Assembly (NCBI GenBank): GCA_011033025.1
Contig: WFMF01000081.1
Location: 1-64,000, forward strand
Reading direction: 5' to 3'
Origin: Beroe forskalii
Lineage: Eukaryota; Ctenophora; Nuda; Beroida; Beroidae
Length of the DNA: 64,000 nt
The notes under the pieces: model-generated
Seen by the model: only the letters and a program-made list of their open reading frames with translations
Databases searched by the model: none
What the model was told of the DNA's origin: nothing
In this document: positions 8,259 through 47,050 of the stretch, piece by piece
Layout: every line of letters begins with the position of its first letter
Numbering within the stretch: the first letter of the stretch is position 1
Position numbers and translations under genes: made by a program

Positions 8259-8839
8259 ATAAACTTGTTTTCAAATAATATCATTGATTTTCATAATATA
8301 TAACTTTTCTAGTCCATTTTCGGACTTTATTTTCAATTCTAATGCTGATTTTTATTTCAATTTTTTTGAATTGTACGCCCAGAGCACGCCTCCAAATTTT
8401 CGTTTGGGGGCATGCGCATGCCCCCAGCACGCCCCCTTGGATCCATGCCTGCTACATCCTATCACTGAAAACTGTTGGTTAGTACAGGTACGATTTGAAT
8501 TTTCATATTAAAAATTCATTTCAATATAATTCGGGTGATAGTAAGGGCTATATTTGATATATCTGAACATGGGTGTGAAATAAATCTTAATCTAGGTTTG
8601 AGGGTTTAATTCGATAGCATATAGGTCAAATATATACCAGAAAAAAAGTCTCAAAAATGTTCGATGCGGAAACCCATTTTTTGGCCACGCCCTTTTTGGG
8701 CAGTGCCCAAAAAATGAATGAACGATATCTCAGCTTAACTTTTTGAGGAAAATTTATAAATGACCACTCTAACTGACGTAGAATTGTCGGTTTTGGTAGG
8801 GTAGAACATGGTTTTAAGTTTCTATCTCAACCCATTCCT

Positions 8840-9475
8840 GAGATAATCCCAAATTTGGCCATTTTGGCTGTCCATGAGGCCCAATATGGGCATTTGGGCA
8901 GCTTATGAGAGGGAAAACATCACAACCATGTAACTTGACTGGAAATGATCGGTTTATGAGGGCAGAGCTTGGTTTCAAAGCTCTATCTTAACCCGTTTCC
9001 GAGATAATCCCCATTTTGGTCATTTTGGCTGTCCATGAGGCCCAATTTGGGCATTTGGACAGCTTATGAGATGGATAACATCAGAACCATGTAACTCAAC
9101 CGGAAATGATCGGTTTATGAGGGTAGAGCATGGTTTCAAAGCTCTATCTCTACCTATTCCCGAGATAATCCCCAATTTGGCCATATTGGCTGACCATGAG
9201 GCCCAATTTGGGCATTTGGACAACTTATGAGATGAAGACCATCAGAACCATCTGACTCGACTGGAAATGGTCGGTTTGTGAGGGTAAAGCATGGTTGTAA
9301 GGCTCTATCTCAGCCCGTTCCCGAGATAATCCCCAATTTGGCCATATTGGCTGTCCATGAGACCCAATTTGGGCATTTGGACAGCTAATGAGATGGATAC
9401 CATGTAACCATGTAACTTGACTGGAAATGGTTGGTTTAAGGGGGTAGAGCATGGTTTTAGGCTCTATTTTCACTC
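8840..9475. repeat. Left-arm tandem array, about 161-bp unit
   Basis: The landmark CCATGAGGCCCAAT or a variant recurs at about 8872, 9033, 9194 and 9355, a spacing of 161-162 bp. Each unit also holds ATGATCGGTTTATGAGGG, and a block with GAGATAATCCCCAATTTGG. Confidence 0.9.
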
Positions 9476-9562
9476 TTTCTCGAAATGGCCATTCGATTAC
9501 AACTTCTATTACAACTCATTTCTATTTATGTCTCGAGCAAAATCAATAACCTCAAACGTGAG

Positions 9563-9995
9563 TACCTTATTGGCCTTTATTTAACCGGCCCTTAAGGACA
9601 AAAACGACTTTGAAATTTTTTTCCAAAGGGCCGGTTAAAAAAAGGCCGGTTAAAGTGGGGCCGGTCAAATTAAAGGCCAGGTAATTTAGGTCAAATTAAA
9701 CTTTTATGAATTGGCTTATATAGTGTAAAATTCACTGGAACGTCATTACATAACACGATAACGACCTAAATCATAATATCAGACCGGGATTTGGGTATTT
9801 TGATGCAATTTATCAAGTAAAAAGGGTTTTAGTGGTCATTTCAGAGCAAAAAATCCTTGATCTGGCAACCTCCATAAAAATTTTCGTCCAAGGGGCCGGT
9901 TAAAACGGTTCAAAAATGATTCATTTTTTGTCCATAGGGCCGGTTAAAAAAAGGCTGGTTAAAAAAAGGCCGGCTAAATAAAGGCCAATAAGGTA
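9563..9995. mobile_element. MITE nested in the foldback, TA-flanked
   Basis: Terminal inverted repeats begin TACCTTATTGGCCTTTATTT and end with the complement GGCCAATAAGGTA. TA borders suggest a Tc1/mariner-type duplication. Subterminal GGCCGGTTAAAA motifs repeat in both halves. A second copy lies at 41494-42002. About 430 bp, non-coding. Confidence 0.88.
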
Positions 9996-10849
9996 TACTG
10001 ACCTAAAACGGCACTTATTATGATTCCTCTTATCTTTTTACAAAGTTGGTTAAAGTCAAGGTCGCCAATCACATCTAGCGTGCATCCTCGATCCTTAAAC
10101 CCTGCAATAAACTCTACAATAAAATCTTGTTTTCTTTTTATGGCCTTTATCTATTTCCGGATAAAATAAATATTTTATCATGTGGCTCAGAAAGTAAATG
10201 TGATGATCAATTCCCACAATTATATTCTTATAGAACCCTCTGACGTTTTCATGCGGGTCTATAATACATAGACAGTAGACACTCGCCTGATCGGGTCCTT
10301 ATTGGTTTAGACCCTCACCCTATGGGCTCGGGCCATAACAGGATAAATCCCTTGGGCTTACGCGGTATGCCCTCGGGAAGTATCCCAAAGGCCCAAAATG
10401 GAACCGATGGGCAATTGGGCACGTTTCTATGAAGAATATAGCTATATAGGTATTGTTTTTAATATAAATTAAAGATGAAACTGCACAAAACAAACCATGT
10501 AACCCTTGGATGTTAAGAAAGTAAGAAGGTGAAAGCAAGCTTAAACAAGTCGATCTTTCTATCTCTGGCCAACAATAAACCTCATTGTACGAATCTATGA
10601 CCGATGGCGCCGAAAATGTTGAGATGATCTGAAATTGATTACACGTGTTAAAACGTCGACGTTCATAGGGTCATGAGTTTTGGAGCTACCATTAACTACA
10701 GTGCAGGAGAGACTTCCCCAATATCATCCAAGAAGGCAATAGCTTGAATTATCCCTGAAGAACTTGGGATATGAAATCTTCAACACCACAAACCAATTAT
10801 TTCTTGATGACAAAGCTAGTCATCACATTGAGTACCTCAGCTGGGTGCC

Positions 10850-11600
10850 CCAATTGAGCCATAAGGGCGCCAATATGTCAAATTTAGGCATTATCTCGGG
10901 AAAGGGTTGAGATAAAGCGTTGAAACAATGCTCTGCCCTCTTAAACCGACCATTTCCGGTCGAATTACATGGTTCCGATGTTCTCCATCTCATAAGCTGT
11001 CCAAATGCCCAAATTGGGCTTCATGGACAGCCAAAATGGCCAAATTGGGGATTATCTCGGGAATAGGTTGAGATAGAGCTTTGAAACCATGCTCTACCCT
11101 CATAAACCGATCATTTCCGGTTGAGTTACACGGTTCCGATGTTCTCCATCTCATAAGCTGTCCAAATGCCAAAATTGGGCCTCATGGACAGCCAAAATGG
11201 CCAAATTGGGGATTATCTCGGGAATAGGTTGAGATAGAGCTTTGAAACCATGCTCTACCCTCATATACCGATCATTTCCGGTTGAGTTACATGGTTCCGA
11301 TGTTCTCCATCTCATAAGCCGTCCAAATGCCCAAATTGGGCCTCATGGACAGCCAAAATGGCCAAAATTGGGATTATCTCGGAAACGGGTTAAGATAGAG
11401 CTTTGAAACCAAGCTCTGCCCTCATAAACCGATCATTTCCAGTCGAGTTACATGGTTGTGATGTTCTCCCTCTCATAAGCTGCCCAAATGCCCATATTGG
11501 GCCTCATGGACAGCCAAAATGGCCAAATTTGGGATTATCTCAGAAATGGGTTGAGATAGAAACTTACAACCATGTTCTACCCTACCAAAACCGACAATTC
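10850..11600. repeat. Right-arm tandem array, about 161-bp unit, inverted
   Basis: The complement of the left-arm unit recurs with landmarks near 11017, 11177, 11338 and 11499, plus a decayed copy near 10852. Four to five units. Confidence 0.88.
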
Positions 11601-11830
11601 TACGTCAGTTAGAGTGGTCATTTATAACTTTTCCTCAAAAAGAAGCTGAGATATCGTTCATTCATTTTTTGGGCACTGCCCAAAAAGGGCGTGGCCAAAA
11701 AATGGGTTTCCGCATCGAAAATTTTTGAGACTTTTTTTCTGGTATATATTTGACCTATATGCTATCGAATTAAACCCTCAAACCTAGATTAAGATTTATT
11801 TCACACCCATGTTTGGTATAGCCCTTACTA

Positions 11831-20579: not shown

Positions 20580-20683
20580 TCTTTTCCCTGAATCATCTCG
20601 GGGGAAGCGTAGAGAGGAGACCCACAGAAGGTGTTAAGGAGGGTGTCGTGGCTGTACTGGTTACTCAGACCAAAGTCAATTAT
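20580..20683 (-). CDS. NUAK-like kinase exon 6 (DFG to SPE)
   Basis: 104 bp between acceptor CCGTAG and donor AAAGA/GTGAGT. Encodes [13 protein letters not shown], the LKB1-type T-loop LLNTFCGSP and [11 protein letters not shown]. The next exon must supply one base to finish a GA- codon; I could not find it. Confidence 0.93.
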
Positions 20684-23600
20684 CTACGGAAACGGGTGGA
20701 TAAAAGAAGGAAATTCAAAATAATCAAATCATGCCAACGTTTTTGGGGATTTTTTCACTCTCCCCATGACAAAGGTCCAAGGTTAGAAAGCTGTTTTAGA
20801 AAAGCTTTTGATTTCTGGGTTTACATAAATCACTCAATGAGAATTTGACACAATTTACCTTGATGTTCATGTCCTTGTCCAAGAGGAGGTTCTCCAGCTT
20901 CAGATCTCGGTGAACTATCAGATTCTGAAAACATTTGGCAGGTGATTTCCTCTCATCATAGAGTTTTATGACGTGCCTCAATTTAAATGATCCGATCTTA
21001 GCACGGACTGTTTGCAAAAACAGTCACAGTTAATGAGTTAATGGAACCGTTTAAGCTATTTATGCATTTTAGTTTGACTAGGTATTTAGTCCGTCAAAAT
21101 ATAACCATTATTATATACGGCCTATTTAACTATTTACTCATTTATTGGAACACGCAAACAATCGATTCCTTTGAGTTTGACACATTGTAAAGTCCTAATA
21201 TTGTTATGTTGTCAGGGAGTCACGAACTAACTCTATAAATATCATGATATAGTCATCATGATATAACAAAACAGTAAATTCTTTCTTTCCATTGAGGGTT
21301 GACATTGAATATTGGCTGACGGCTGAGGCAGAAGAATGTAATATCAAGGATGTTTATTTTGCCCTCGTCATAAATTTTTAGACAAATCGTTACAACATTC
21401 ATAGCATTCCGTATAGCCCATACGCCGACAATGGCAGAATGTCCAAAACTATATGCCAACATTTTTTATTCATTTGATAACTTTAGGTCATATAAACTTA
21501 CTCATCGGTTTGGCATGGCAATTATCTCATACTCAATACCCGGCGCATTACTTCAAGCTTTATTTCTAGTCCCGCCGGAAATAAACGAACTTGAACCCTG
21601 ACACACACGTGACAAGTGAGCCGATAGCACGTGCGTGTGACGCACACCACGTGTTGCCATGGCAGTGTACCACGCATAAGATAAGCATCGCGTTGTGCAA
21701 CCCTCCAATCACGCGTGACTCATCACGTGCCTGGTCACGTGACTGAAACCTGGTGACAGGATCCAGGGTATTGTACGGATTGGGTACGGAGTAAGCAAAA
21801 CTACCCGTCCCACAGAAGGTAAGTTACGTGACCTAACATTACTGCTCTTACTATACTGAGAATGAAGGAGTGTGTTTATGTTAATGTGTTTTTAGAGGTT
21901 TCACCAAAACGTGGTATGATGTCAGAGATCTCTCAGATTAAAGTGCACTTGTCAGGCTTCTTTCCTAATTCAGAGCATTTCAATTGGTAGCCCAACTAGC
22001 AGATAAAAAACAAAGTTGACAGTCAAGACGCAGGGTACCCTTTGTTCCAGGGTGAAAGGCAATGAGATCATGGCCTGTTTTGACAGTATTCATCACATAC
22101 AAATGTGACATGATTTAATGAAATTATTAAGTACTTAATATGCTAAGTAGGAGCGTTCAAAATTGCATTTAACGAGCTAAAGACTAGCGGGTTTCACCAA
22201 ACATTTTATTACATCCTCCCAGCTAGAGACTTGTCTTAGACCTCACGCACGAAAACAGATGGTTGAACGTCACAAACCCACCATTCTGCACCCTGACAAT
22301 GACGTCACTTTCAAAGTACGATCTTGAGCTCTTAGGAAGAGTCAGGTTGAGTTGGGCACGGGGCACTCTATTTGCACACACGTTCTCTGGCTCGCTGGCT
22401 TATATTATTATGCGATTCTCTTATGATTAGCGACAAGGGGTACTGTATAATTACTGTATAATTAATTAATTAAGAGGAAGATCCAACGCCCACAATCCGT
22501 GCGTCAAACGACAGCTCCCCAGATTTACATACATATGCCACGTCAATAATAATATAACAAGTTTAATAACAATCTGAATATGCATGTGTTTGTCAGAAAT
22601 ATTTCCAGACTGCTGAATAACTCGGAGATTATTAAACTGTCATGGACAGCTCACATACAGTCAAACTGTAAAACACATGAAGTTAAGGAGGAGTATGAAC
22701 ATCAGGCGGCTCAAGCTGACGTCATTATCATGGTTAAAGGTGGTGAGCTGATGGCTTATTTCAGGAGGACGGTGTTAGGAAGTTAGGAAAACTCTCGCAA
22801 GCCACAAATTAGGAAATAGTAAATGAAGGATTTTAGCTTGTTCGGAGGGTGAATCAGGCTGTCTTAATTCGATAATTATAACTTTTTACGAGTCTTACTA
22901 GAGTAGCCCAGACTAAGTCAGTATGCAACATTCGAGTGGACAAAGTTGCTCAACGGTTTTTGGTAGTTCTAACTGTCCTTTATCAGAAAAATTAACTGCC
23001 CTTCCGTGAATCGACGTCATGGGGATGCTAGGGCCACGCTCATTTTTTCGCATGGTTAAACGGCTGTAACTCCGGTTCCTTTTGGAGTTGGGAGCAAACC
23101 AACCACCTTAAAATGACCGCAATGGACACATTATGTCAGGCGGATGATGGTTCTGAAGCCCCTCAGACCTTTCGTTTTCAAGTAACAGCCAAAAACTGAT
23201 TTTTTCGTCACCCATGAACCCAGCGCAAGGTAAAAATCAACTTTCATTCCTTTTGGAGTAGGGCATGAACCAACCAGGTTAAAATAACCGCTATCACCCT
23301 AATTATTTGGGATAGATGATGGTTTGAAGCCCTTTACGACCTTCTATTTGTAGAAAATGCACAAAAAGATTTAAGCAGCTACATAGCCATCGAACCTTAT
23401 CAAAACTAATATATATTTTTCTTCTCCACCAACTCAGGACGTAAAGGTCCATCCGTTAGCAACGGTTACTAGCCCTTCAGATCGTGTAGAATCGATGTAG
23501 CTTTAGCATGACATCTGATCTCTATGGTGACAAGTCGATATTGACCGCCCTTTTTAAGGTCACGCGCACGCTTGATATTTCATAACTTGGCTCAGGAAGG

Positions 23601-26600
23601 TCATAGGACGTAGATCCTTTCTTTTGAGCACCAACGAAACTCAAAGGCCATGTTTGTATACAACTTTTACCTTAGCATATGCTTTAAAATGCTCAGAAAG
23701 AGTTATGGGCGAAAGAAAAGCTGATTTTGGGGCACCAGCTGGATAGCAGAGTCGATTTTTGTATCTTGGCCCAGTAAAGACGTAGAGAAGTCGTTTTGGG
23801 CGCAAATGAACTGTAATAGCCATGTTTATACAGTACAACTTGTTTTAATAAAAATATACCCTAAAATGTTCAGCAAAAGAGTAATGGGCAAAAAACTGAT
23901 TTTTTGGGTATCCTTCACTTTGGGCGCAAACAGAGTGCAATTGTCATACTGTTTTATGTACAACTTTTTAGTAAGCATATGCCCTTCAATGATCAGGAAG
24001 GGAGTTGTGGGCGAAAAACTGTTTTTTTGGGCACATGTGGTGCATAATACCTACCTATAGTGGCCATTGTCCGATCCCAGCTGAGGACCCAATTTGACAA
24101 CCCTGCTGCTTAGGCAGCTCCGTGGTCCAATCTAGTATTGAGTTTGAGTTCGATGTAGTGTAACCTAGGAACTGGAGGTAGATCAGGTTTGCTTCTCAAG
24201 AGGCTGGATTGAGGATGAATAAAGGCAAGAGGTGGGATCCGTCAGTCTTGGTTTGAATGTCTCGAAGGATGGAGGACTGAATTGTCTTTTGGAACAACAT
24301 TCCACAACCTCAGACCGAGCTTTGACAAATGGTGATCCATACGTAATTTCATCGAGGGCTCCTGCCTTTTATTCATTGGGTGTACTTTAACAGATGCTAC
24401 ATTATATGCATTGTGCATTATCTCATAACGCTCTCTACGCCTCTGGAGGGGCCTCGGGAAAAACCTCTTCCCTTTTTCGAAGGGAACCAATGGATTTACC
24501 TTTAAAAAATATTTGGGTGGTTCCGTTTCTTTATTTTAATTTCACTTCCAAGGGGGGTTTAATGATGCAACCTTAAAACTTTTTTTGGTGACTAAAAAAA
24601 ACATTAATGGTTTTTTTAGGGGAATTTTCAGGGGGTTCGTAAAAAAAGTATCTTCGGTTTTTCAAAATTTAAAGGGGGAATACAAAAGGGTCTGAAGGCC
24701 CCCCTCCAAAAACCCGGGTGGATTATTGATTAGGTTTGAAAATTTTGGGCAAAAACAAAAAGTCCTCCACCTTCAGGGGATTCCCAAAACAACTGACATC
24801 CCCCCATTTTTGGGCATCCCCAACGTCCTCTTGGGAAACATTCATACCGCTGCCAATTTCCCCATGAACTCAATTTTAGATTGGACCCCCGGGGCCCCCT
24901 TTTCTTGGCCCAAAGGGCAAACCCGGGCAATTTATTGGACAAACCAAATGGGGGCCCCAAAAAACAATTTTCGCCCACAACTCCTTTTCATTGAAGGGCA
25001 ATATTTACTAAAAAGTTTCATAAAACAATTAAATTCCTCTGTTTCTTAAAATGAAGGATCCCAAAAAACAATTTTTACCTTTTACTCTTTTTGTTTTTAG
25101 GTTTTAAATTTTTTTTAAAAAAAAGTTGGACTTTTTAAACATTAATTTTTTCGTTTCATTTGCACCCAAAAAAAACTTCTCCCTCTTTACTGGGAAAAAT
25201 TTCCCAAAAAAAAACTCTGCTTCAGCTGGTGCCCAAAATGCTTTTCCCAAACTCTCTTTTGGGCATTTAAAACAACTAAAAAATTAAAAATTTATAAAAC
25301 AATTTCCCCGGTTTTTGTTTGGTTTCTCAAAAGAAAAGGGTCTACGTCTATGACCCTTCCCGAGCCAAATTTGAAATATCAAGGCTTCGTGACCAAAAAG
25401 GGGCAATTCAGGCTTTCACCCTAGAGATCGGGGTTCATGCTAAAACTACATCCGATTCTACACGATCTGAAGGGCTAGTAACCGTTGCTAACGGATGGAC
25501 CTTACGTCCTGGGTTAGTGGAGAAGAAAAAATATATTAAGTTTTGATAAAGGTTCGATGGCTATGTAGCTGCTTAAATCTCTTTTTGCATTTCTACAAAT
25601 AGAAGGTCGTATGGCTTCAAAACCATCTATCCCAAATAATTAGGTGATAGCGGTTATTTTAACCTGGTTGGTTCATGCCCTACTCCAAAAGGAATGAAAG
25701 TTACGATTTTTTACCTTGCGTTGGCTCGCGGGTGACGAAAAATCAGTTTTTTGGCTGTAACTTGAAAACGAAAGGTCTGAGGGCTTCAGAACCATCATCC
25801 GCCTGACATAATGTGTCCATTGCGGTCATTTTAAGGTGGTTGGTTTGCTCCCAACTCCAAAAGGAACCGGAGTTACAGCCGTTTAACCATGCGAAAAATG
25901 GGCGTGGCTCTAGCACCCCCCATGACGTCGATTCACGGAAGGGCAGTTAATTTTTCTGATAAAGGACAGTTAGAACTACCAAAAACCGTTGAGCAACTTT
26001 GTCCACTCGAATGTTGCATACTGACTTAGTCTGGGCTACTGGAGTATCTAAGATGATTGTGACATTTTGTGCGACTTTTCCACTCCTCAAAAAATTTAGC
26101 CCGTTCATTGTCATGACTAAATATTATTTTCTCTCAGATTTTCTTCATTGGCGATATAGAAGATTGAAGCAAAATACTGAATGACTGAACAATGAAGTTC
26201 AAAAGTTGAAAATGAATGGAAAAAAGTTATTAACATGCCACAGAACTAATCAAGTTGTAAAATCCATTCAATGACTTGTTAGACTGTGCATCTCACTTTG
26301 ACATGACTTGTGGCCACTGACAGAGTATTACTCAAATCCAATGAATGGAGCAGTGGCGCGCAGGATCATGCACTAAAGCTGATCACATGCTGTTCATGAC
26401 GTATGTACAGTGTAAACTTTGTAAGTCTGACGTTGCTTGTACAGCAACACTAAAATAAAGAAAGAGGATTATTCTACTATAGACAAAAAGAATTGAATGT
26501 CATTGTGACGTCATTCTCTATCAGCTTACTTTAACATCGTCATCTCATTGTATCAAGAAAACTTGAAACCTTGCCACTATGTTCAAGAATGCTAATTGCT

Positions 26601-29600
26601 AACGTATAGATTACAGAGTCAAATATTTGTTCAATGTTCAAACTCCAAGAGTTTAAAGGATTATCTGGACCAGCAAATTAGTCACTGTAAATAGGTAAGA
26701 ATTTAGCACCATGTCTAAAAGCGACTAGAAACTACCGCTCTAATGAGAGGTATCTGTCAGTGACAGGGCACTTTAGCAATACCTCCAATGCTCTGTAACC
26801 TAACAACCATTTTACTTCTCACTGGCTTACTACCTAACTAGACCTTGTCTAGTAGAAATGAAAAATGTACTGAAATTCCCCGATTTTCTATTGTAACTAT
26901 CGGTAGTCTTGGACTAGACATTGCTGTTGGACTGAGAAGACTCACATACATAGTGGCATAGAGGAGGTTCATGTCATAAAACAATAAGGTTGTCAACCCA
27001 ACAAGAACAACACTACACCAGCCAGCAGATTTGGAGAGTAAGTTTTTAACACAACAACATGTCAGAGCAGACTTTTAAACAACCCCTCTAATACCTACAC
27101 AACTCTGTACACACAGTACACACACAACATAACATGTTGGTAGTAGTGAGGGTTAGGGCTGACAGGTTACAATGTGTCAGGGGTAGTAGCCGCAGTGCTT
27201 ACTATTGCTACAAGGGTGTTATTATGTGAAGTAATACATGATACATAATTAGAGTTTAGATGTAAACGGAGTTCAAAGTCACCCTCCTACTCTTATTTGT
27301 TTATTAAGGTTGGCTGGACTGGGTGACTTCTGGTATTTGGAAACTGGAAATTGGAAATTCACAAACATTTTCCTTCTCTCACCTGCTAAAGATCTCGTAG
27401 ATTGAACTGCAACTGTGAAATGAAATAACCTACCAAAGTTGCTGTGGCCTGTGACACAAAATAGATTGACTGTGGACAGTGGACACATCTACAGATGACT
27501 GTATACAACTTATGTGTAGTGATTAATATACATGTCACAACATCACATCCCCTGCGTGGAATCACTGCATAGCATGATTAACACAGACCAGCAGATCTTG
27601 TGGAACTCAGTACAACTCTGCTAATGAATCCCCTGTGTTAACCGCAACATACACAATACATCGGGTGTACATATCACCATGTACTCAGATTGTACATAAT
27701 GTTACACTCTCCAGACTTACGGATCCTAATATTCTCAATTCTAGAACTTTCATATGATCTAAGTAAGTTTAGGCACAGTACACTCAGTTTTTTTTTATAA
27801 GAAACTTATTGGAATCCTAGGCTACAAGTTTCTTATTTTTTGACGATTTTGAGCCTAAAAGTTTCTTAATCGGTTTCTTAATTCAGCATAGCATACTATA
27901 CAGCATGAATTTACTTGTGAAACTTCCTATACAGAAACCTTCTCTGTAGACTGTAGTTGATGCTTAAAATCAAAATTTTAGATATTTTCAGCTAGTTTAT
28001 AAATAATCTTCATGGCTCGTCTAAAAAGTTCTTCCGAAAAGGTTCACGAATTTCCAAATTTAGATTTGGAAGTATTTAGCCGAGTTCAATGCTTGAAAAT
28101 GAAGTTATCGTCTAAATGTCTAAAGAACAGAGGTTCTAGCTAGCGGCTTTCTGGACCTATGAAAATAAATATGGAGGTATAGTCTGTCAGACTCAACAGC
28201 AATTTCTGCTTGTGCTTCGGTATCTAACATGCTACTTTTAACAGAAAAATCATAGAAGAGCCATTTTCTAACTTTCTTTACATATAAATTATCACTATTA
28301 CACATGTATTACACATGTCCAGTGTAATACTGTAATAGAATTCCAATAGGAGTACTTCAAATGAGTATCAAAATGTTCACAATCTAAAGTGAAGGGGTCT
28401 GGGAACAGCCCCATAATAGACGTTTCATGTTAAAGAATTTCATTTTCAATAGGATTTTATACACAAATTTCAAAATTCTAGGCTAGAAGTTTCTTAATTT
28501 CTTAATTTCAAATCAGTGAAGTTTCTTAATTTTTCCGAAATTCTAGGCTAAGTTTCTTAAATTTTTGAGAATCCTAGGCTAAGTTTCTTATAGACAGTTT
28601 CTTATAAAAGAAACTGAGTGTACTACAGTAGTGTATTAAGTTAAATTTAGATATACACGCATAAGTGCACATGCAGCGTGTAATTCACCTACAATGCGAC
28701 TTGTAGGAGAGCACAAAATTCTAAAATAATTGCCACAAAATAGTTGGATTGAATAGGTGAAACTAATTACTTATTTAGCACAATGAATTCAGTTCACAAT
28801 CGTGAAATGAGTTCTAGCTAACATTAAGGCTTTAGTCGTAAAACTTAGTTAGCGGTGTTAGTGTGACTCTGTTTGCACAATGTGCCCATCATTAACCTAG
28901 GAATTCTCGGAATTTAGCTAGATTCTCGAAGTGTGTAATACACTCAACATAGAGTTTAACGTGTGGGTTTAACTTCTATCCCTCGAGTGAGTTAAGAGTT
29001 TGGCCGCACGCCAGACGGGGGTAAAAATTTAAATTTAAGTTCATAAAATATGCCTAAACTAGTAGGTATTTGAGAGATTTGAAGCGTCAAAGTTGCGCGT
29101 ATATCATTCATCAGGCAGAGGCCTAACCGATCAAAAAAGCAGAAGATTTGAGACTACAATAACAACAAAATAAAGCTGTACTGTGACACTAGCACAGGAC
29201 TTACAACACCCACCTTGTGACAGTAGTCGACAGCACAGTACTTGCAACACCCACCTTGTGACAGTAGTCGACAGCACAGTACTTGGAACACCCACCTTGT
29301 GACAGTAGTCGACAGCACAGTACTTACAACACCCACCTTGTGACAGTAGTCGACAGCACAGTACTTACAACACCCACCTTGTGACAGTAGTCGACAGCAC
29401 AGTACTTGGAACACCCACCTTGTGACAGTAGTCGACAGCACAGTACTTAAAACACCCACCTTGTGACAGTAGTCGACAGCACAGTACTTACAACACCCAC
29501 CTTGTGACAGTAGTCGACGGCACAGTACTTGCAACACCCACCTTGTGACAGTAGTCGACAGCACAGTACTTGGAACACCCACCTTGTGACAGTAGTCGAC

Positions 29601-31356
29601 GGCACAGTACTTGCAACACCCACCTTGTGACAGTAGTCGACAGCACAGTACTTGCAACACCCACCTTGTGACAGTAGTCGACAGCACAGTACTACAACAC
29701 CCACCTTGTGACAGTAGTCGACAGCACAGTACTTGGAACACCCACGGTAGTCGACAGCACAGTACTTAAAACACCCACCTTGTGACAGTAGTCGACGGCA
29801 CAGTAACAACACCACCTTGTGACAGTAGTCGACAGCACAGTACTTGGAACACCCACCTTGTGACAGTAGTCGACGGCACAGTGCAACACCCACCTTGTGA
29901 CAGTAGTCGACAGCACAGTACTTGGAACACCCACCTTGTGACAATAGTAGTCGACAGTAGTCGACAGCACAGTACTTGGAACACCCACCTTGTGACAGTA
30001 GTCGACGGCACAGTACTTGCAACACCACCTTGTGACAGTAGTCGACAGCACAGTACTTGCAACACCCCACCTTGTGACAGTCGACGGCACAGTACTTGGA
30101 ACACCACCTTGTGACAGTAGTCGACAGCACAGTACTTAAAACACCCACCTTGTGACAGTAGTCGACAGCACAGTACTTGGAACACCCACCTTGTGACAGT
30201 AGTCGACAGCACAGTACTTGGAACACCCACCTTGTGACAGTAGTCGACGGCACAGTACTTGCAACACCCACCTTGTGACAGTAGTCGACGGCACTGACGA
30301 TCTGTCGGAAGTACTTCCTACTCTCTGCCTCGTCCAGGTACCTTCTGTCGTTGATGTAGTCGAACAGTTCCCCGTTTACAGCGTACTCCATTACAATGAT
30401 GATGTTAGTTCGTGTCTCAACCACTGGCGAGGGAGGGCTGGGTTAGCTAGTGGTTTACATTATAGCAGTAGTAGTTCAGTATGAGCACTGAGCAGATGTC
30501 AAATTATTATTAGCAAAATAGAGAGGGCTTGGGAGTCTGGAGGTCATATGCCGATATATTATGATGCATTGGAATTAAACCAAAAAGTAGTTTATCAACT
30601 CGACTCGGAGCATCGTTGAATCAATCATCAGATAGCCAGATGGATGTTAAGTTTCGAATGAGCAACAAATGAACATTGAAGTTATGAAGCCCAAAATACA
30701 TACCATCAATGACTTTGATGATGTGAGGATGTCTGAGAACAGATAGGATGTCAATCTCTCGTCTAACTCTCTCCATGTCCTTCTTAGTCTTGACATTCTC
30801 CTTCCGGATTATCTTGATAGCAACCTGCACCATTGACAGTCTGATTAGTGATTATTGATGTGATTTGCTATGAGCTAATCGGTAATCCGGACTCTTCTGA
30901 GTCCGGATTAGCTTGTACCAAATCGCCACAGATCGCAACTTGGAGTGGCGAATCTTCGGAGTTAATGCGTGAAAAGTATGTGAACTGAGAAATTTTGTGA
31001 TTTGTGCCCGATGTTGCGAAGTGTTTTACTGTAGCGTTTCATTGAAATAATGAACTTAGGAGTGTATATCATGCTTTTGTATGGCCAGTGTACCAACCAA
31101 GCTTATCAGTTATCAGTGATATGTGATACTGCGAGTCTTTCTGTACATTCCACCTTGTATACTACTATCTCCAATGTAGGTATTGTATTGAATATTTTAA
31201 TATAAAGAAGGGGAGGGCTGTTACACACTCCTGTAGCATTGTACACAGAGTTAATTGCAGAGTGTCAAGACTTCAAGAGTCGAGTACATTAGCGTTATCA
31301 GCTCCTGGTCTCATGACAGGTTTTAAAAATGCCATTATTACACTAGGTACCCACAC

Positions 31357-31397
<41 letters not shown>

Positions 31398-34300
31398 CGT
31401 GTGTCTTAAATACACCACTGCCACCTCACTGAGGGCAATAAGGTCACTGCCTTAGGAGCACTGGGTTATGTTAAGTGTCTTGTTAAAAGGTTCAAGGTGA
31501 TTAACTGGTTGCGAAATGTAGAATTGAAGGGGGTTGCGTACACAGTGAACACACGTACCTGATACTGGTCATGTGCGATTTGTTAATAAGGCATCTCCAT
31601 ATTTAGTGTAAAACATAAATATCAGAATATTCAATTAAATTTGCATATAACCATGACAGTCCACTAGTTAATAAGGACCTAATACCTCAAATCTAGGTAA
31701 TTAATAAACAAGATCCACTTTATTGTGCCTAGAACAGTAGAACGTGTCTGATGCTCTGACTGATGAGTCACTTGGGTCTTTGTAAAGAAGTTTTAATACA
31801 TGCTATTAAGTAGACACACAGCACATTCCGCTAAGGTATTTTTATAGCACCTAGTTTAAACAGCAGTTCAAGTTGTGATTCTTAGACATGGGCAAACTAA
31901 TATCAGTAATGGAATAATATGCTGAATATTTTTACAGGACGGAAAATGTGTAAGGATTAAAAGGTGTTCAAGTTTTCATTAAACTAGTACAGCTATTTCA
32001 AGATTTTTATGCCTCTAGGGCTTATTAGATATACGTGTGGATTTTGCTTATTGACTATGGAGTACTCTCAATGAATTTATCCGACTATTATAGCAAAACT
32101 TGGTATTTGTCTAATGTGAAGCATGGAATTCTAACCTGCCTTCTCTTGTGTTCTCTCAGCTTAACAAGACACAATGGATATTGGATACACTATACAGTGT
32201 GTAAATGGTATCGTTAACAAACCATAATATCAAACATTCTAACCACAAATTGTAAACTACCTTAGTACACCTAAGAACGGCATCACGTAATTGGCGCGCA
32301 CTTTAAGATCGGCGCACTTTATTAGTGCGGTTTTTATGACTTGAGATCGAAAACGATAATCGATATGGAATTGAGAACCGAAATATGTATAAAAACGAAT
32401 TCGAAAAACGAAAAATTCACGAAATTGTTCACTTAATTTCATGTGCACTTAATTACTGAACACTTAATTAGTGCGGTTTTTCCCAAACCGCACTAATTAA
32501 GTGACGCCGTTCTTAAGTGTACTAAGGTATCGGAGTTTTGGATGTGACGAGATATATCTCAATTAATACCGATGAATACAGAATTCATCTTCTCCGTCTT
32601 TTTGTGCTATAATTTCCTTTATTGAAGCGTGATAGCACAGGATAACGATTAGACATAAGTACCAAGTTACAGCTTTACAAGTAACCAGACACAGAGGACG
32701 TGTGTCTGAGAAGTGTTCACTATGTTGATTACTGAGATACTTCAAAAGTCTAACTTAGCTTGTACGACTTGTCATGTCTGTTATTAGGTTATTCGGGCCT
32801 CTAAATTCTGGACCAGGTCATACACAGTTTTAGAGGTTTAGAATCAAGATCAAATTGCACCAGTGAATCTTATTAACTGTGGCCAACCAAAAGTTATTAA
32901 AAACAATTTTTTAGTTCTTTTAGTTTGGTAATAAATTGTAGATTTACAGGGTAAAATGAAATGTTCTAATGCATTACCTCAGCACATCTACAAACATACA
33001 TACACAAAGACACACATACACGGAAGGCTACAGCCTGCTACAGTGGAATGCAGTTGTAATGTCAACACATGTTCAGGAATGCGGTGTACTACAACAGTCT
33101 TAGATCAGACACTGAAACCTCAAACTCTTGAATAACATACACATACCGTACACTGTGTCCTCATACATCAAATTAGCATGGTAATGTGTCCGGTAAACTA
33201 TATTTAGTATTCCTGTAAATTATCCACTAAAGCTTACTGCTCAGTTTATTGACTGCTTCTACATCAGGGCCAGTCAGATGGGCATTGGACAATGGACATT
33301 GTGTGATGGAAACCGTTTCTCTTGTTTTTTTTTTCTAAATAAGTAAATAGTGATTTAACGGTTGAATGCAGACTGCAGCGCAATGACCTTGATATTATTA
33401 TTGCCAAGATAATAAATAAATAAAATAAATAAATGTTAACCATTTGTTAAACCCCTTATAGCTTAAATAGGATTCAAAATTTTTAAATATTAACCCAAAA
33501 ATCTAATCCTGCTCTCTAAAGCGTCTCATAAAATTTACTTTCAATCAATGTCATGTGAATATGCACATAAAAATCTCCTGGCTAGAATAAAACATTATAA
33601 GATTATAAATCTGTATGCCAAGTGTTGCATTCTGTTATGCAAGTGACCACTTGTTATTCGGTAATATTTATCTTTGATATCAGTGTTTAACTTTAAGGTG
33701 TTGAAATGCCTAAATCCTATGAATTAACTCCTGTTAAATAATATAATACAGTGTTAAATGTATTTTAGCAGTTTCATTGTAATATCTTTATTCTTTATAC
33801 TATAGAAAAGAAAAGTACTAGAAAAAGTATAGTTGAACTAGTTCAGAATATTTTTCCCTGAGATTTTATGGTGAGCCACAGCAACCAGCAATAAAACAAA
33901 GATGAATTAATGAGTTAACCTTTTCACGAGTGTAGTTGTCATAAGCAAGTTTAACTTTTCCATAAGTTCCTTCTCCCAGAGTCCTTTCAATCCTATACCG
34001 CTTGCCACCAGGATTAGTGCCAGTAGATCCTGAATAGAATGGAACTACAGCAAAGCACTTATACCATGACTGATGGCTTCTATGGAAAATCATAAGTCAT
34101 GTGCAAAAATGATTATTCATCTGTCAAAATATAGATTCTGTCATCTGGGGACTAACACACCTACTCCTAGTTTTCTAGATAAGTAGATAGCCCTTTCTAA
34201 TCATACCGTTTCATTAACATAATATGATAATAAATTATTACATTTAGCTGAGTTTTCTGTCATTAATCAATTGATAAATCTAATATGCTCCAGTAAATGT

Positions 34301-36788: not shown

Positions 36789-38676
36789 TAGACTCCAACT
36801 AGTCAGTACATACCATGGTACATATTGCAGTATGTACTGCGGAACATATCCTAACTAGTTGGCACATACTGCGGTACGTACCGTGGTATGTGCCGATTAG
36901 TTAGAACATGTTCCCTGGTACATACCCCAGAATATAACCTAACTAGTTGGTACATACCGCAGTACCTATTCCCAAATTTCTTGTGATAAAGAGGTGAAGC
37001 TTGCAACAAACAAATATCAATGATCAAGGCAATTCAAACAAATCACTATGCATTTTACAGCATCAAGAGTCATAGCCACCAGAGTTGAACTTTATCAATT
37101 TTGTATCGTCTCACAGCATGGCATGAATCTACTTAGCGAGTTTGTTTCGTTCATTGATTTGTTTAAGGTGATTAGTGATTGCACATCACTGTGCGCTGGG
37201 TAAGAAGTACATGCCCCAAAATAAAAGACCGAGGTATTTGTGATGACTGCCTTGCTGACCAAAGATCAGCCAAGTATATTACACTCAGATACAGCACTTA
37301 CAAAAATAAAATATTATTAAAAATGCACTTATAAAAATTTTCCTTGTGTTTGAATAATGAGCGTAATTAAGCAAAGAATACTAAACTTATGACACCAAAA
37401 TACCATCAAAATGTCATAGTGCATCGCAACGAAAAGTTTTGCAGCTATCAGATAATGTCCTCACACTCAGATCAGTGTTTTACCACTTTCAGAGTGGAGA
37501 CGTGATTTCAGATCACGTCTGCACGCTCAGATCAGCATTTTGCCATGCTCAGCACGGAGACGTGATTTTCAAATCACGTCTCCGCTCTGAAAGTGGTGAA
37601 GCGCTGATCTGATTATGAAGACATTATCTGATAGCTGCAAAACTTTTCGTTGTGATGGACTTTGACATTTTAACGGTATTTTGATGTCATTAGTTCACAA
37701 TTCTTTGCTTAATTACGCATATTATTCAAACACAAGGAAAATGCTGAGAGTGGTAAAACGCTGTTCTGAGAATGCAGACGTGATCTGAAATCATGTCTTC
37801 ACTCTCAACGATTTAAGTCATTGCGGGAGCTATAATAACGACTTTTTCTGACCAATATCGATTCCAAAGCCATGCCTACGTTAAGCTATGATATTATGAT
37901 AACGTGCCGTTCGAAATGGTGTATTTATGCAACGACGAAACTTGGTGAAATTGCCAATGTCATGAATGTTGAATCGCCCTTTTGCGTCCAAAGTGATCAT
38001 AGTGATTATGATCATTGTTCATTTTTCGCCAAAATCACGTCTTGAAAAGGCTGACTTGTCGCCACGCTGAGCGTGGCAGATCAGCAGTGTTCTGTCACTG
38101 GGAGATTGTGACTGTCTGGTAGGACCAATTGGGTGTCTGGTTCATTCTATGCATGCCAGACCTATAGGTCACGTGACCAGGACCAAGCAGGGGTCAACAG
38201 CCATTCTATCTGTAGACATCATTTCCTTGATGCTGCTATGCTATCAGTTGTTTGCTCTGACTCTCTTTGCCTTAACACTGGTTAAGTTGCCTTGACTCAA
38301 CTTGCTTTACACTGGAGAATCTTGTTGACTCAGTTTAACTTTTAATTCTGGAAGATCGAAGTTTAACTCTTGTGGCTTTGACTCTTGATGTTGTAAAATG
38401 CATAGTGATTTGTTTGAATTGCCTTGATCATTGACCTTTGTTGCAAGCTTCACCTCCTTTAATCACAAGAAATTTGGGAATAAATGCACACGCAGAGGCG
38501 GTATGTACCGACTAGTCACTAGTTAGGATATGTTCTGAGGTATATACCGCGGAACATGTCCTAACTAGTCAGCACATACCGCAGTACGTACCACAGTATG
38601 TGCCTACTAGTTAGGACATGTTCCACGGTACGTACCATGATACATACCACGGTATGTGCCGACTAGTTGGGGTCTA
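36789..38676. mobile_element. Foldback element (1.9 kb), TA-flanked
   Basis: Ends TAGACTCCAACTAGTC and GACTAGTTGGGGTCTA. Arms of about 300 bp (36789-37090 and 38365-38676) are full of short palindromes of the type GGTACGTACC and ACTAGT. A second palindrome is nested inside (37336-37742). No coding capacity. Confidence 0.87.
37336..37742. repeat. Nested palindrome
   Basis: TTTTCCTTGTGTTTGAATAA pairs with its complement at the right end; the centre near 37540 has GAGACGTGATTT and AAATCACGTCTC. Partial copies of the centre follow near 37743-37800. Confidence 0.85.
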
Positions 38677-44409: not shown

Positions 44410-45195
44410 ACCGACATTTCATCTCGCGACACTTCATCTCACGACATTTCATCTCCGACACTTCTTCTCAAAGTACGAAATTTCATCTCGTACTGTTTAT
44501 CGATTGTATCTTAAAGTACGACGTTTGATCTCCAGGGTGCGACGTTTCATCTCAAAGGGTACGACAATTCATCTCTTACTGGAACTTGATTGTACTGTAA
44601 AGTACGACATTTGATCTCGAGATTGCGGGTTTCATCTCCAAGGCTACGACACATCATCTCTGGGGATGACACCTTTTATCAGGGTAGGAAACATGATCTC
44701 AGGGTACGACAATTCATGTCAGGGTACGACACTTCGTCTCAGACTTCGACATTTCATCTCTGAATAAGACACTTCATCTCAGGATACGACGCTTCATCTC
44801 AGGGTACGACACTTCAACTCAGGGTACGACACTTCAAGTCAGGGTACGACACTTCATCTCATGGAAGTGGAACGACACTTCATCTAAGACTGCGACATTT
44901 CATCTCTCGGTACGACACTTCTTCTCTCGTCATGATTCTTCATCTCAGACTGCGACACTTCATCTCTGGGTACGACAACTCATCTCTGGGTACGACACTT
45001 CATCTCAGACGACGACATTTCATCTCAAGGTACAACACTTCATCTCTGACTGCGATCCACTTCATCTCTGGTACCTTCATCTCTGGGTCGACAATTCATT
45101 TCAGATTCGGCACTTCATATCAGACTGCGACACACTCTCTCTGCGGGTACGATATTTCATTTTGACTGCGACACTTCATCTCAGGGTACGACACT
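44410..45195. repeat. About 20-bp minisatellite, left arm
   Basis: Variants of GGGTACGACACTTCATCTCA in direct tandem, about 20-21 bp, interspersed with GACTGCGACATTTCATCTC types. Confidence 0.9.
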
Positions 45196-45680
45196 TCCCA
45201 GAGATGAAGTGTTGCAGTCTGAGATGAAGTGTCGTACCTAGAGATGAAACGTCCAGTCTGAGAGATGAAATGTCGCAGTCTGAGATGAAGTGTCGTTCCC
45301 CAGAGATGAAGTGTCGTTGATGAAAATTCTGAGATGAAGTGTTGTACCAGAGATGAAATGTCGCAGTCTGAGTGAGAAGATGAAGTGTTGTACCCAGCGA
45401 TGAAATGTCGCAGTCTGAGATGAAGGGTCGTACACTGAGATGAAGTGTCATCCCCAGAGATGAAGTGTCGTACCCTTGAGATGAAGTGTCGCACTCTGAG
45501 ACAATCAAGCACAGTAAGAGATGAATTGTCGTACCCTTTGAGATGAAACGTCACACCCTGGAGATCAAACGTCGTACTTTAAGATAATCGATAAACAGTA
45601 CGAGATGAAATTTCGTACTCTTGAGAAGAAGTGTCGGAGATGAAATGTCGAGATGAAGTGTCGCGAGATGAAATGTCGGT
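45195..45680. repeat. About 20-bp minisatellite, inverted, inner block
   Basis: Complementary units (GAGATGAAGTGTCGTACC) start abruptly at about 45195, where the left array ends. This makes a hairpin centre with almost no loop. Confidence 0.9.
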
Positions 45681-46019
45681 TCCGTGATCTTTTCATGGTC
45701 AAAGAGATACTGCTTGCTTCCTCCTCCTTCTCTATCAGTCACGTGAACCTCGTTCTGCTCGATTATTGGTTGAGGGAGAGTGTCCCTTGCTTTGTCATGT
45801 GATCTGACTGGGGACACTCGAATCCTGATTGGGATGTACAATTTTGACCTTGTATAGTACTAATGTATTTCTTGGCTCTCAATGTATAAACTTTAGCTTC
45901 CATTTTCCAAGTAATCGCAATTATCAGCTTGAAAATGGAACTGGCAAGACTTGCTGATTCTAAAATCATCTGTTATCTGCGTCTATCGTAGATTAGTAGA
46001 TTGGTATCAGAAAATTTCA

Positions 46020-47050
46020 TGGTGCCCAAAAGCAAATGAAGTGTCGTACCCTAAAATGAAGTGTCATACCATAAAATGAAGTGTCGTACCCTGAGATGAA
46101 GTGTCGTACCCAGAGACGAAACGTCGCAGTCTGAGATGAAGGGTCGTACACTGAGATGGAGTGTCGTACGTTGAGATGAAGTGTCGTACCCTGAGATCAA
46201 GTTTCCTACCCTGATAAGAGGTGTCATCCCCAGAGATGAAGTGTCGTAGCCTGGGAGATGAAGTGTCGTACTCTGAGATAAAGTGTTGTACCCAGAGATG
46301 AAATGTCGCAGTCTGAGATGAAGTGTCGTACCTAGAGATGAAATAACGTACCCGCCAAATATGTAGTGTCGAAGTCTGAGATGAAGTGTCGTACCCTGAG
46401 ATGAATTGTCGTACCGAGAGATGAAATGTCGCAGTCTGAGGTGGAGTGTCGTACCCTAAGATGAAGTGCCGTTCCTTGAGATGAAGTGTCTTACCGAGAG
46501 ATGAAATGTCGCAGTCTGAGGTGAAGTGTCGTATCCAGAGACGAAATGTTGTACCCTGAGATGAAGTGTCGTACCCTAAGATGAAGTTTCGTACCCTGAG
46601 ATGAAGTGTTGTACCCAGAGATGAAATGTCGCAGTCTGAGATGAAGGGTCGTACACTGAGATGAAGTGTCGTACGTTGAGATGAAGTGTCGTACCCTGAG
46701 ATCAAGTTTCGTACCCTGAGATGAAGTGTTGTACCCAGCGATGAAATGTCGCAGTCTGAGATGAAGGGTCGTACACTGAGATGAAGTGTCATCCCCAGAG
46801 ATGAAGTGTCGTACCCTTTGAGATGAAATGTCGCACTCTGGAGATCAAATGTCGCACTTTAGAGTTCAATCAAGTTACAGTAAGAGATGAATTGTCGTAC
46901 CCTTTGAGATGAAACGTCGCACCCTGGAGATCAAACGTCGTACTTTAAGATACAATCGATAAACAGTACGAGATGAAATTTCGTACTTTGAGAAGTAGTG
47001 TCGGAGATGAAATGTCGTGAGATGAAGTGTCGCGAGATGAAATGTGGGTT
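46020..47050. repeat. About 20-bp minisatellite, inverted, outer block
   Basis: Same unit family as the inner block. A higher-order period of several units is visible: the block containing GAAGGGTCGTACACTGAG recurs near 46137, 46643 and 46761. Confidence 0.88.

Follow-up and report, generated by a model that had tools for sequence, protein, structure and literature searches.

A tandem repeat over a splice junction of a NUAK-like kinase gene, and similar arrays at junctions of other genes

In a protein kinase gene on the minus strand of the window (the whole 64,000-nucleotide stretch analysed here, C925:1-64000, starting at the first base of its contig), the end of exon 4 and its 5′ splice site recur in tandem about 27 times. 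This raises the question of what such a series of near-identical donors means for the gene: does it give rise to kinases of different lengths, or is it a repeat that splicing simply tolerates? We examined the array, a second copy of the locus and comparable arrays across the genome assembly (216 Mb, 1134 contigs).

The kinase gene and its junction array

The gene is called NUAK-like here for its resemblance to human NUAK1; the matches listed for the window kinase peptide (60 of 2636) included no solved NUAK structure. Exons 2–6 are open on C925. When exons 3–6 are joined, they align with MARK2 over query residues 1–147 with a single one-residue gap, which lies in exon 3, and the join of exon 4 to exon 5 (at 20924) through the first donor is in frame and gapless. 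A few kinase motifs of the C-lobe were sought on the minus strand of the window and none was found. The best candidate for this part lies at C270:988775-989647, about 4 kb from a contig end, with matching orientation and phase, and with it added to exons 3–6 the product has a Pfam Pkinase match over residues 1–184. As this exon completes the codon that exon 6 leaves two bases in, and as both lie near contig ends in matching orientation, we infer that it is probably exon 7 of the window kinase gene, in which case the next exon of the gene probably also carries a junction array (Table 1).

Table 1. Exons, junction arrays and other repeats; positions are those of the window unless a contig is named
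Feature	Location	Strand	Description
Exon 2	33920..34029	-	Glycine-rich loop GEGTYGKV, loop at 33979; putative boundaries at CTATTCAG/GATC and AAAAG/GTTAAC
Exon 3	30704..30824	-	Peptide ends HIIKVID
Exon 4	30272..30423	-	VDYCHK exon; phase 0 end; ends CACAAG/GTGGGT
First 5′ splice site, GTGGGT	30266..30271	-	Join to exon 5 is gapless in the MARK2 alignment
41-bp minisatellite over exon 4/intron 4 junction	29191..30294	-	Tandem Repeats Finder: 27.1 copies, 89% matches
26 further donor-like sites	29208..30230	-	8 would add 41-257 residues, in frame and stop-free
Exon 5	20859..20924	-	Catalytic loop
Exon 6	20580..20683	-	Ends two bases into a codon
NUAK-like C-lobe exon, 3′ junction	C270		92 bp, 9.1 copies; nine CTCTTACC[C/G]CAG acceptors
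MARK-like, 5′ junction			50 bp; 19 sites in the fetched part
Aurora, 5′ junction			About 39-44 bp, 4.5 copies
PLK1-like L059, 5′ junction	C435:11300-11800		3 copies of the donor junction
PLK1-like L060, 5′ junction	C435:70810-71310		2 copies of the same donor junction as L059
Myosin L048, 3′ junction			34 bp, 8.1 copies
Myosin L052 and L057			Two-copy cases; only ~4 (L052) and 2-3 (L057) exonic bases in the unit
Kinase L062 and L063			Similar loci; second junction copy with 5/32 and 4/31 mismatches
Kinase L066			Second copy, 1/22 mismatches
Kinase L064			Probable; exon end only, 2/18 mismatches, where the fetched sequence stops
Long inverted repeat, intron 4	22896-26046		Serial arms of 129, 118, 79, 60 and 66 nt with 78-100% complementarity; 2893 nt between the outer arms; foldback-type element; middle (~24.4-25.4 kb) looks rich in short homopolymers
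Two opposed 161-bp tandem arrays	8566-11813		Arms 8739-9403 and 10978-11642, 94% complementary; further outer arms 99% complementary
Repeated element of ~1 kb	~37089-38102		Inner inverted repeat; at least 37 further places, 84-96% identity
Mirror-like minisatellite block, 2.6 kb	44411-47045		20-bp unit arrays (TTCATCTCAGGGTACGACAC), then the motif's reverse complement

A 27-copy array at 89% match is not a product of chance, and the NUAK array is real. Its units differ from one another by substitutions and indels, differences that, to judge from the assembled letters, seem unlike assembly stutter. When 296 array bases were searched against the genome, the matches listed comprised only the array itself and one 46-bp single-unit match on contig C419. 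The first-pass annotation had described about 26 copies of an exon end plus its donor at 29205-30423. The 41-bp array, the VDYCHK exon end and the AAG/GTGGGT donor bear this out, with 27.1 copies, although that interval takes in exon 4 itself (30272-30423), the gene being on the minus strand. We likewise agree that the minisatellite grew out of the exon end and its 5′ splice site and that the pre-mRNA would carry a ladder of similar donors, with 27 donor-like sites in all, from 30271 to 29213. The unit, however, consists of about 23 exonic and 18 intronic bases rather than the proposed 27 and 14, its cut being ambiguous by 5 bp, as GTGCT flanks the unit in the single-unit copy on C419.

The donor word is AAG/GTGGGT at 22 of the 27 sites, AAG/GTGGTG at three and AAG/GTGGGG and ACC/GTGGGT at one each, such that AG/GT is present at 26. 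Spacing between donors is 41 bp in 18 of 26 cases and 33–54 bp in the others. The idea that every third donor would fall in frame, 3 × 41 being a multiple of three, is therefore not borne out: the reading frame of exon 5 is matched by 11 of the 27 donors, and nine of these, the first among them, are free of stops as well. Freedom from stops in every frame, also suggested earlier, is true of the consensus, but stop triplets (TAA, TAG or TGA) occur in 7 of the 26 donor-to-donor units. Read on from exon 4, the frame runs for 275 codons before it closes, against a median of 99 when the order of units is shuffled (P = 0.10, 5000 shuffles). Selection for an open frame through the array is thus not supported, and none need be invoked to explain its openness.

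A second copy of the locus lies on C419, a contig of 183,860 bp whose end comes about 2.2 kb past exon 4. It carries exons 2–4 and a single 41-bp unit, compared with about 27 on C925, and in it two GTGCT words 41 bp apart flank that unit. Exons 2 and 3 are identical in the two copies and exon 4 has three silent differences. C419 is colinear with the window over 27.1-43.0 kb only, with 221 mismatches in 6603 aligned columns (the part compared), and about 0.24 kb of unmatched sequence stands in place of the ~37089-38102 element. No partner for C419:140001-155857 was found in C925:43-80 kb, and a genome search for a second copy of the exon 5–6 region found none. From its sequence, C419 may be the other haplotype (a haplotig) or a segmental duplicate of the C925 locus, and the difference in unit number, 27 versus 1, is to be read with both in mind. 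A second haplotype or copy of the C270 and MARK arrays was also sought, and none was found.

Junction arrays in other genes

The NUAK exon 4 array is not unique, as tandem splice-junction copies also occur in MARK, Aurora, PLK1-like and myosin genes (a myosin exon of this genome has 53 of 56 residues as in Myosin-9 chain 9ihl_A). Both junction types are hit: the 5′ splice site in NUAK-like exon 4, MARK, Aurora and PLK1-like genes, and the 3′ splice site in the NUAK-like C-lobe exon and myosin L048. Among 20 further kinase-exon windows, four have a nearby second copy of the junction or exon end, spotted by eye and then measured, without a shuffle control. Kinase loci outside this set were met along the search chain and serve as illustrations, not as a rate. 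Three other arrays (L047:1342-1613, L048:337-1196 and L055:3106-3169) merely abut an acceptor and were excluded as junction-spanning cases.

Some of these arrays speak to the function of the extra copies. In the MARK array AG/GT is kept in 9 of 19 copies, with GC in 3 of 19, a decay that argues against a need for additional donors. The MARK exon frame runs into SLE-VG-stop directly after the exon. In each of the two PLK1-like loci the frame ends 21 bases beyond the first donor, and in Aurora it ends 54 bases beyond it; such fast closure argues against a general scheme for making length variants.

Several side observations were made along the way. The two similar PLK1-like loci are a second case in which copy number is unequal between close copies. 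Eight kinase loci with long open frames (L027-L030 and L032-L035), spread over six contigs, form one family with ~86-95% DNA identity. Innexin matches, together with the myosin exon that resembles Myosin-9, mark the genome as an animal's; its 216 Mb fall short of the roughly 500 Mb of Branchiostoma, and it may thus not be a lancelet's.

Whether arrays prefer junctions is a separate matter. Minisatellites, counted from a period of 10, 3 copies and a score of 100 upwards, make up 8.6% of the window and 7.8% of a myosin sample comprising 12 stretches, 35.8 kb and 53 exon matches with 106 edges, these being profile-match edges and hence approximate. In this sample 3 of 12 arrays span a junction, against the 0.79 that an even spread of array births over collapsed non-coding DNA would give (P = 0.04). 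Point by point, a nearby second occurrence of a 12-base junction word was seen at 1 of 74 junctions placed automatically, compared with 21 of 350 intronic points (10 rows summed) and 2 of 222 exonic points; inspection added the two two-copy cases, L052 and L057, to the junction count. Genome-wide, a triple-donor pattern gave 1543 matches against 2931 for its reversed control, and so showed no enrichment, these counts being matches, many of them overlapping in long arrays, rather than loci. AG before a donor is common in any case, as 18 of the 26 donors located in the myosin sample show. Junction arrays thus recur, but that they favour junctions above other non-exonic sites is weakly indicated and not established. 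Given the point-wise counts and an array count that reaches only P = 0.04 with approximate edges, we do not claim a junction hot spot.

Probable origin and tolerance of the array

We think it quite likely that the NUAK array is a minisatellite of the type named mirages in lancelets, a kinship drawn from its anatomy. Repeats of the same kind on the junctions of other genes, taken together with the lancelet mirages, make it probably a minisatellite that splicing tolerates rather than a device for protein variants. Such an array could have started by slippage or unequal exchange between GTGCT words 41 bp apart, as found in the single-unit copy, and would then have grown and been homogenized as other minisatellites are. 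Under exon definition, the acceptor of exon 4 would be paired with the first donor, presumably the one in use, and the array would leave with the intron of about 9.3 kb. Splicing between AG/GT units would also restore the same mRNA; because 26 of the 27 sites carry AG/GT, an array in this position would be tolerated where one inside an exon would not. In the likeliest account, frequent tandem duplication has produced the array as a passive side effect: the exon-adjacent copy keeps working and the rest becomes intron.

The array donors could instead be put to use, adding 41, 67, 81, 126 or more residues after the alpha-E helix and before the catalytic loop to yield kinase variants. The retention of AAG/GTGGGT in 22 of 27 donors fits this proposal, as do the score of this motif on a donor matrix (9.8 versus 8.65 for exon 5's own donor) and the eight donors past the first that are in frame and open. 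Yet in-frame donors are irregularly placed and number 11 of 27, openness has P = 0.10 under unit shuffling with stop triplets in 7 of 26 units, one or two units suffice to close the exon frame in the MARK, Aurora and PLK1-like arrays, and the second copy on C419 has no ladder. Length variants of the catalytic domain, as the first-pass annotation envisaged, would moreover have their insert between CHK and the HRD loop, and indels break the 3 × 41 register on which they were to depend. A splice ladder in this gene is possible but poorly supported, and we judge it very improbable. The same series of donors might rather do harm, lowering correct splicing such that the C925 copy is weak or null and the one-unit copy does the work. 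Where identical donors compete at a distance of 41 bp, mis-splicing can arise, and 18 of the 27 would give frameshift or stop products. Exons 2–6 nevertheless remain open on C925, and what the lancelet papers say of mirage transcripts is that the mRNA is normal (PMC3087553, PMC3902484), which leaves a damaging allele improbable.

An inflation of one or a few units by the assembler would fit the single unit on C419, but against it stand the sequence differences among units (substitutions and indels), the modest length of 1.1 kb for a long-read assembly and the similar arrays in several other genes; we give this explanation hardly any credence. We are just as sceptical that the array serves as a decoy, its dense donors (22 intact motifs in about 1.06 kb) holding U1 snRNP on the 9-kb intron and so guarding against premature polyadenylation. 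MARK copies carry AG/GT in only 9 of 19 cases and GC in 3 of 19, and triple-donor arrays are not in excess over the reversed pattern genome-wide. Our preferred reading therefore remains that of a tolerated, mirage-type minisatellite.

If junctions do let minisatellites grow unseen by selection, the arrays at hand, with about 27, 19, 9, 8, 4-5, 3 and 2 copies, would be natural test cases for how the spliceosome chooses among near-identical sites and for how introns are enlarged or born. We put forward only tentatively, as something rather doubtful, the broader proposal that in a non-lancelet animal minisatellites keep arising on the junctions of many genes, with AG/GT letting the spliceosome hide them, so that junctions would act as tolerated nurseries for intron growth and possibly intron birth, and copies of one locus would still vary in unit number. 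The arrays also carry a warning for gene annotators, as exon ends may be copied many times and frames may stay open by chance.

Comparison with known systems

Intron gain through tandem duplication of an AGGT-containing segment has reportedly occurred in a potato RdRp gene. The Rogers model, as cited in PMC3087553, proposes this route in general. The NUAK array resembles both in its tandem duplication across AG/GT but differs, as far as the model is set out there, in that an existing intron grows. Tandem arrays of dual-specific splice sites are described in human UBC and VCX3A, where expansion may be hidden by splicing (PMC10809524). NUAK units likewise carry AGGT, a potential donor or acceptor; unlike them, the UBC units are, in that account, coding and a multiple of three in length, whereas the NUAK unit is 41 bp in 18 of 26 spacings. 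In earthworm metallothionein genes the minisatellites reported lie inside an intron, off the junction (PMC12783039). In the open-licence literature we found no junction-spanning minisatellites in non-lancelet animals.

The closest parallel is provided by the lancelet mirages, and the earlier statement that no system of this kind had been described does not stand, as these share the anatomy of the array (PMC3087553, PMC3902484). Mirages are described as tandem units over 5′ or 3′ splice junctions with AG/GT in many units, unit lengths ranging from 10-72 bp (Adh3) to 150-160 bp (BflGb6), and with 6 and 3 copies in two copies of the BflGb6 locus (PMC3087553). RT-PCR suggested undisturbed splicing to its authors (PMC3087553), and PGBD5 and troponin C have been added as cases (PMC3902484); normal mRNA splicing despite the array and somatic instability are counted among the features of the class. 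Here, too, the 41-bp unit spans an exon–intron boundary (exon 4/intron 4), both 5′ and 3′ junctions are affected in the genome and AG/GT is found in many units (26/27 in the NUAK-like gene, 9/19 in MARK). Set against the lancelet cases as those papers present them, the arrays reported here differ in reaching about 27 copies and in residing in kinase and myosin genes. The class itself is in print; any novelty may lie in how many genes are affected and in the lineage in which they occur.
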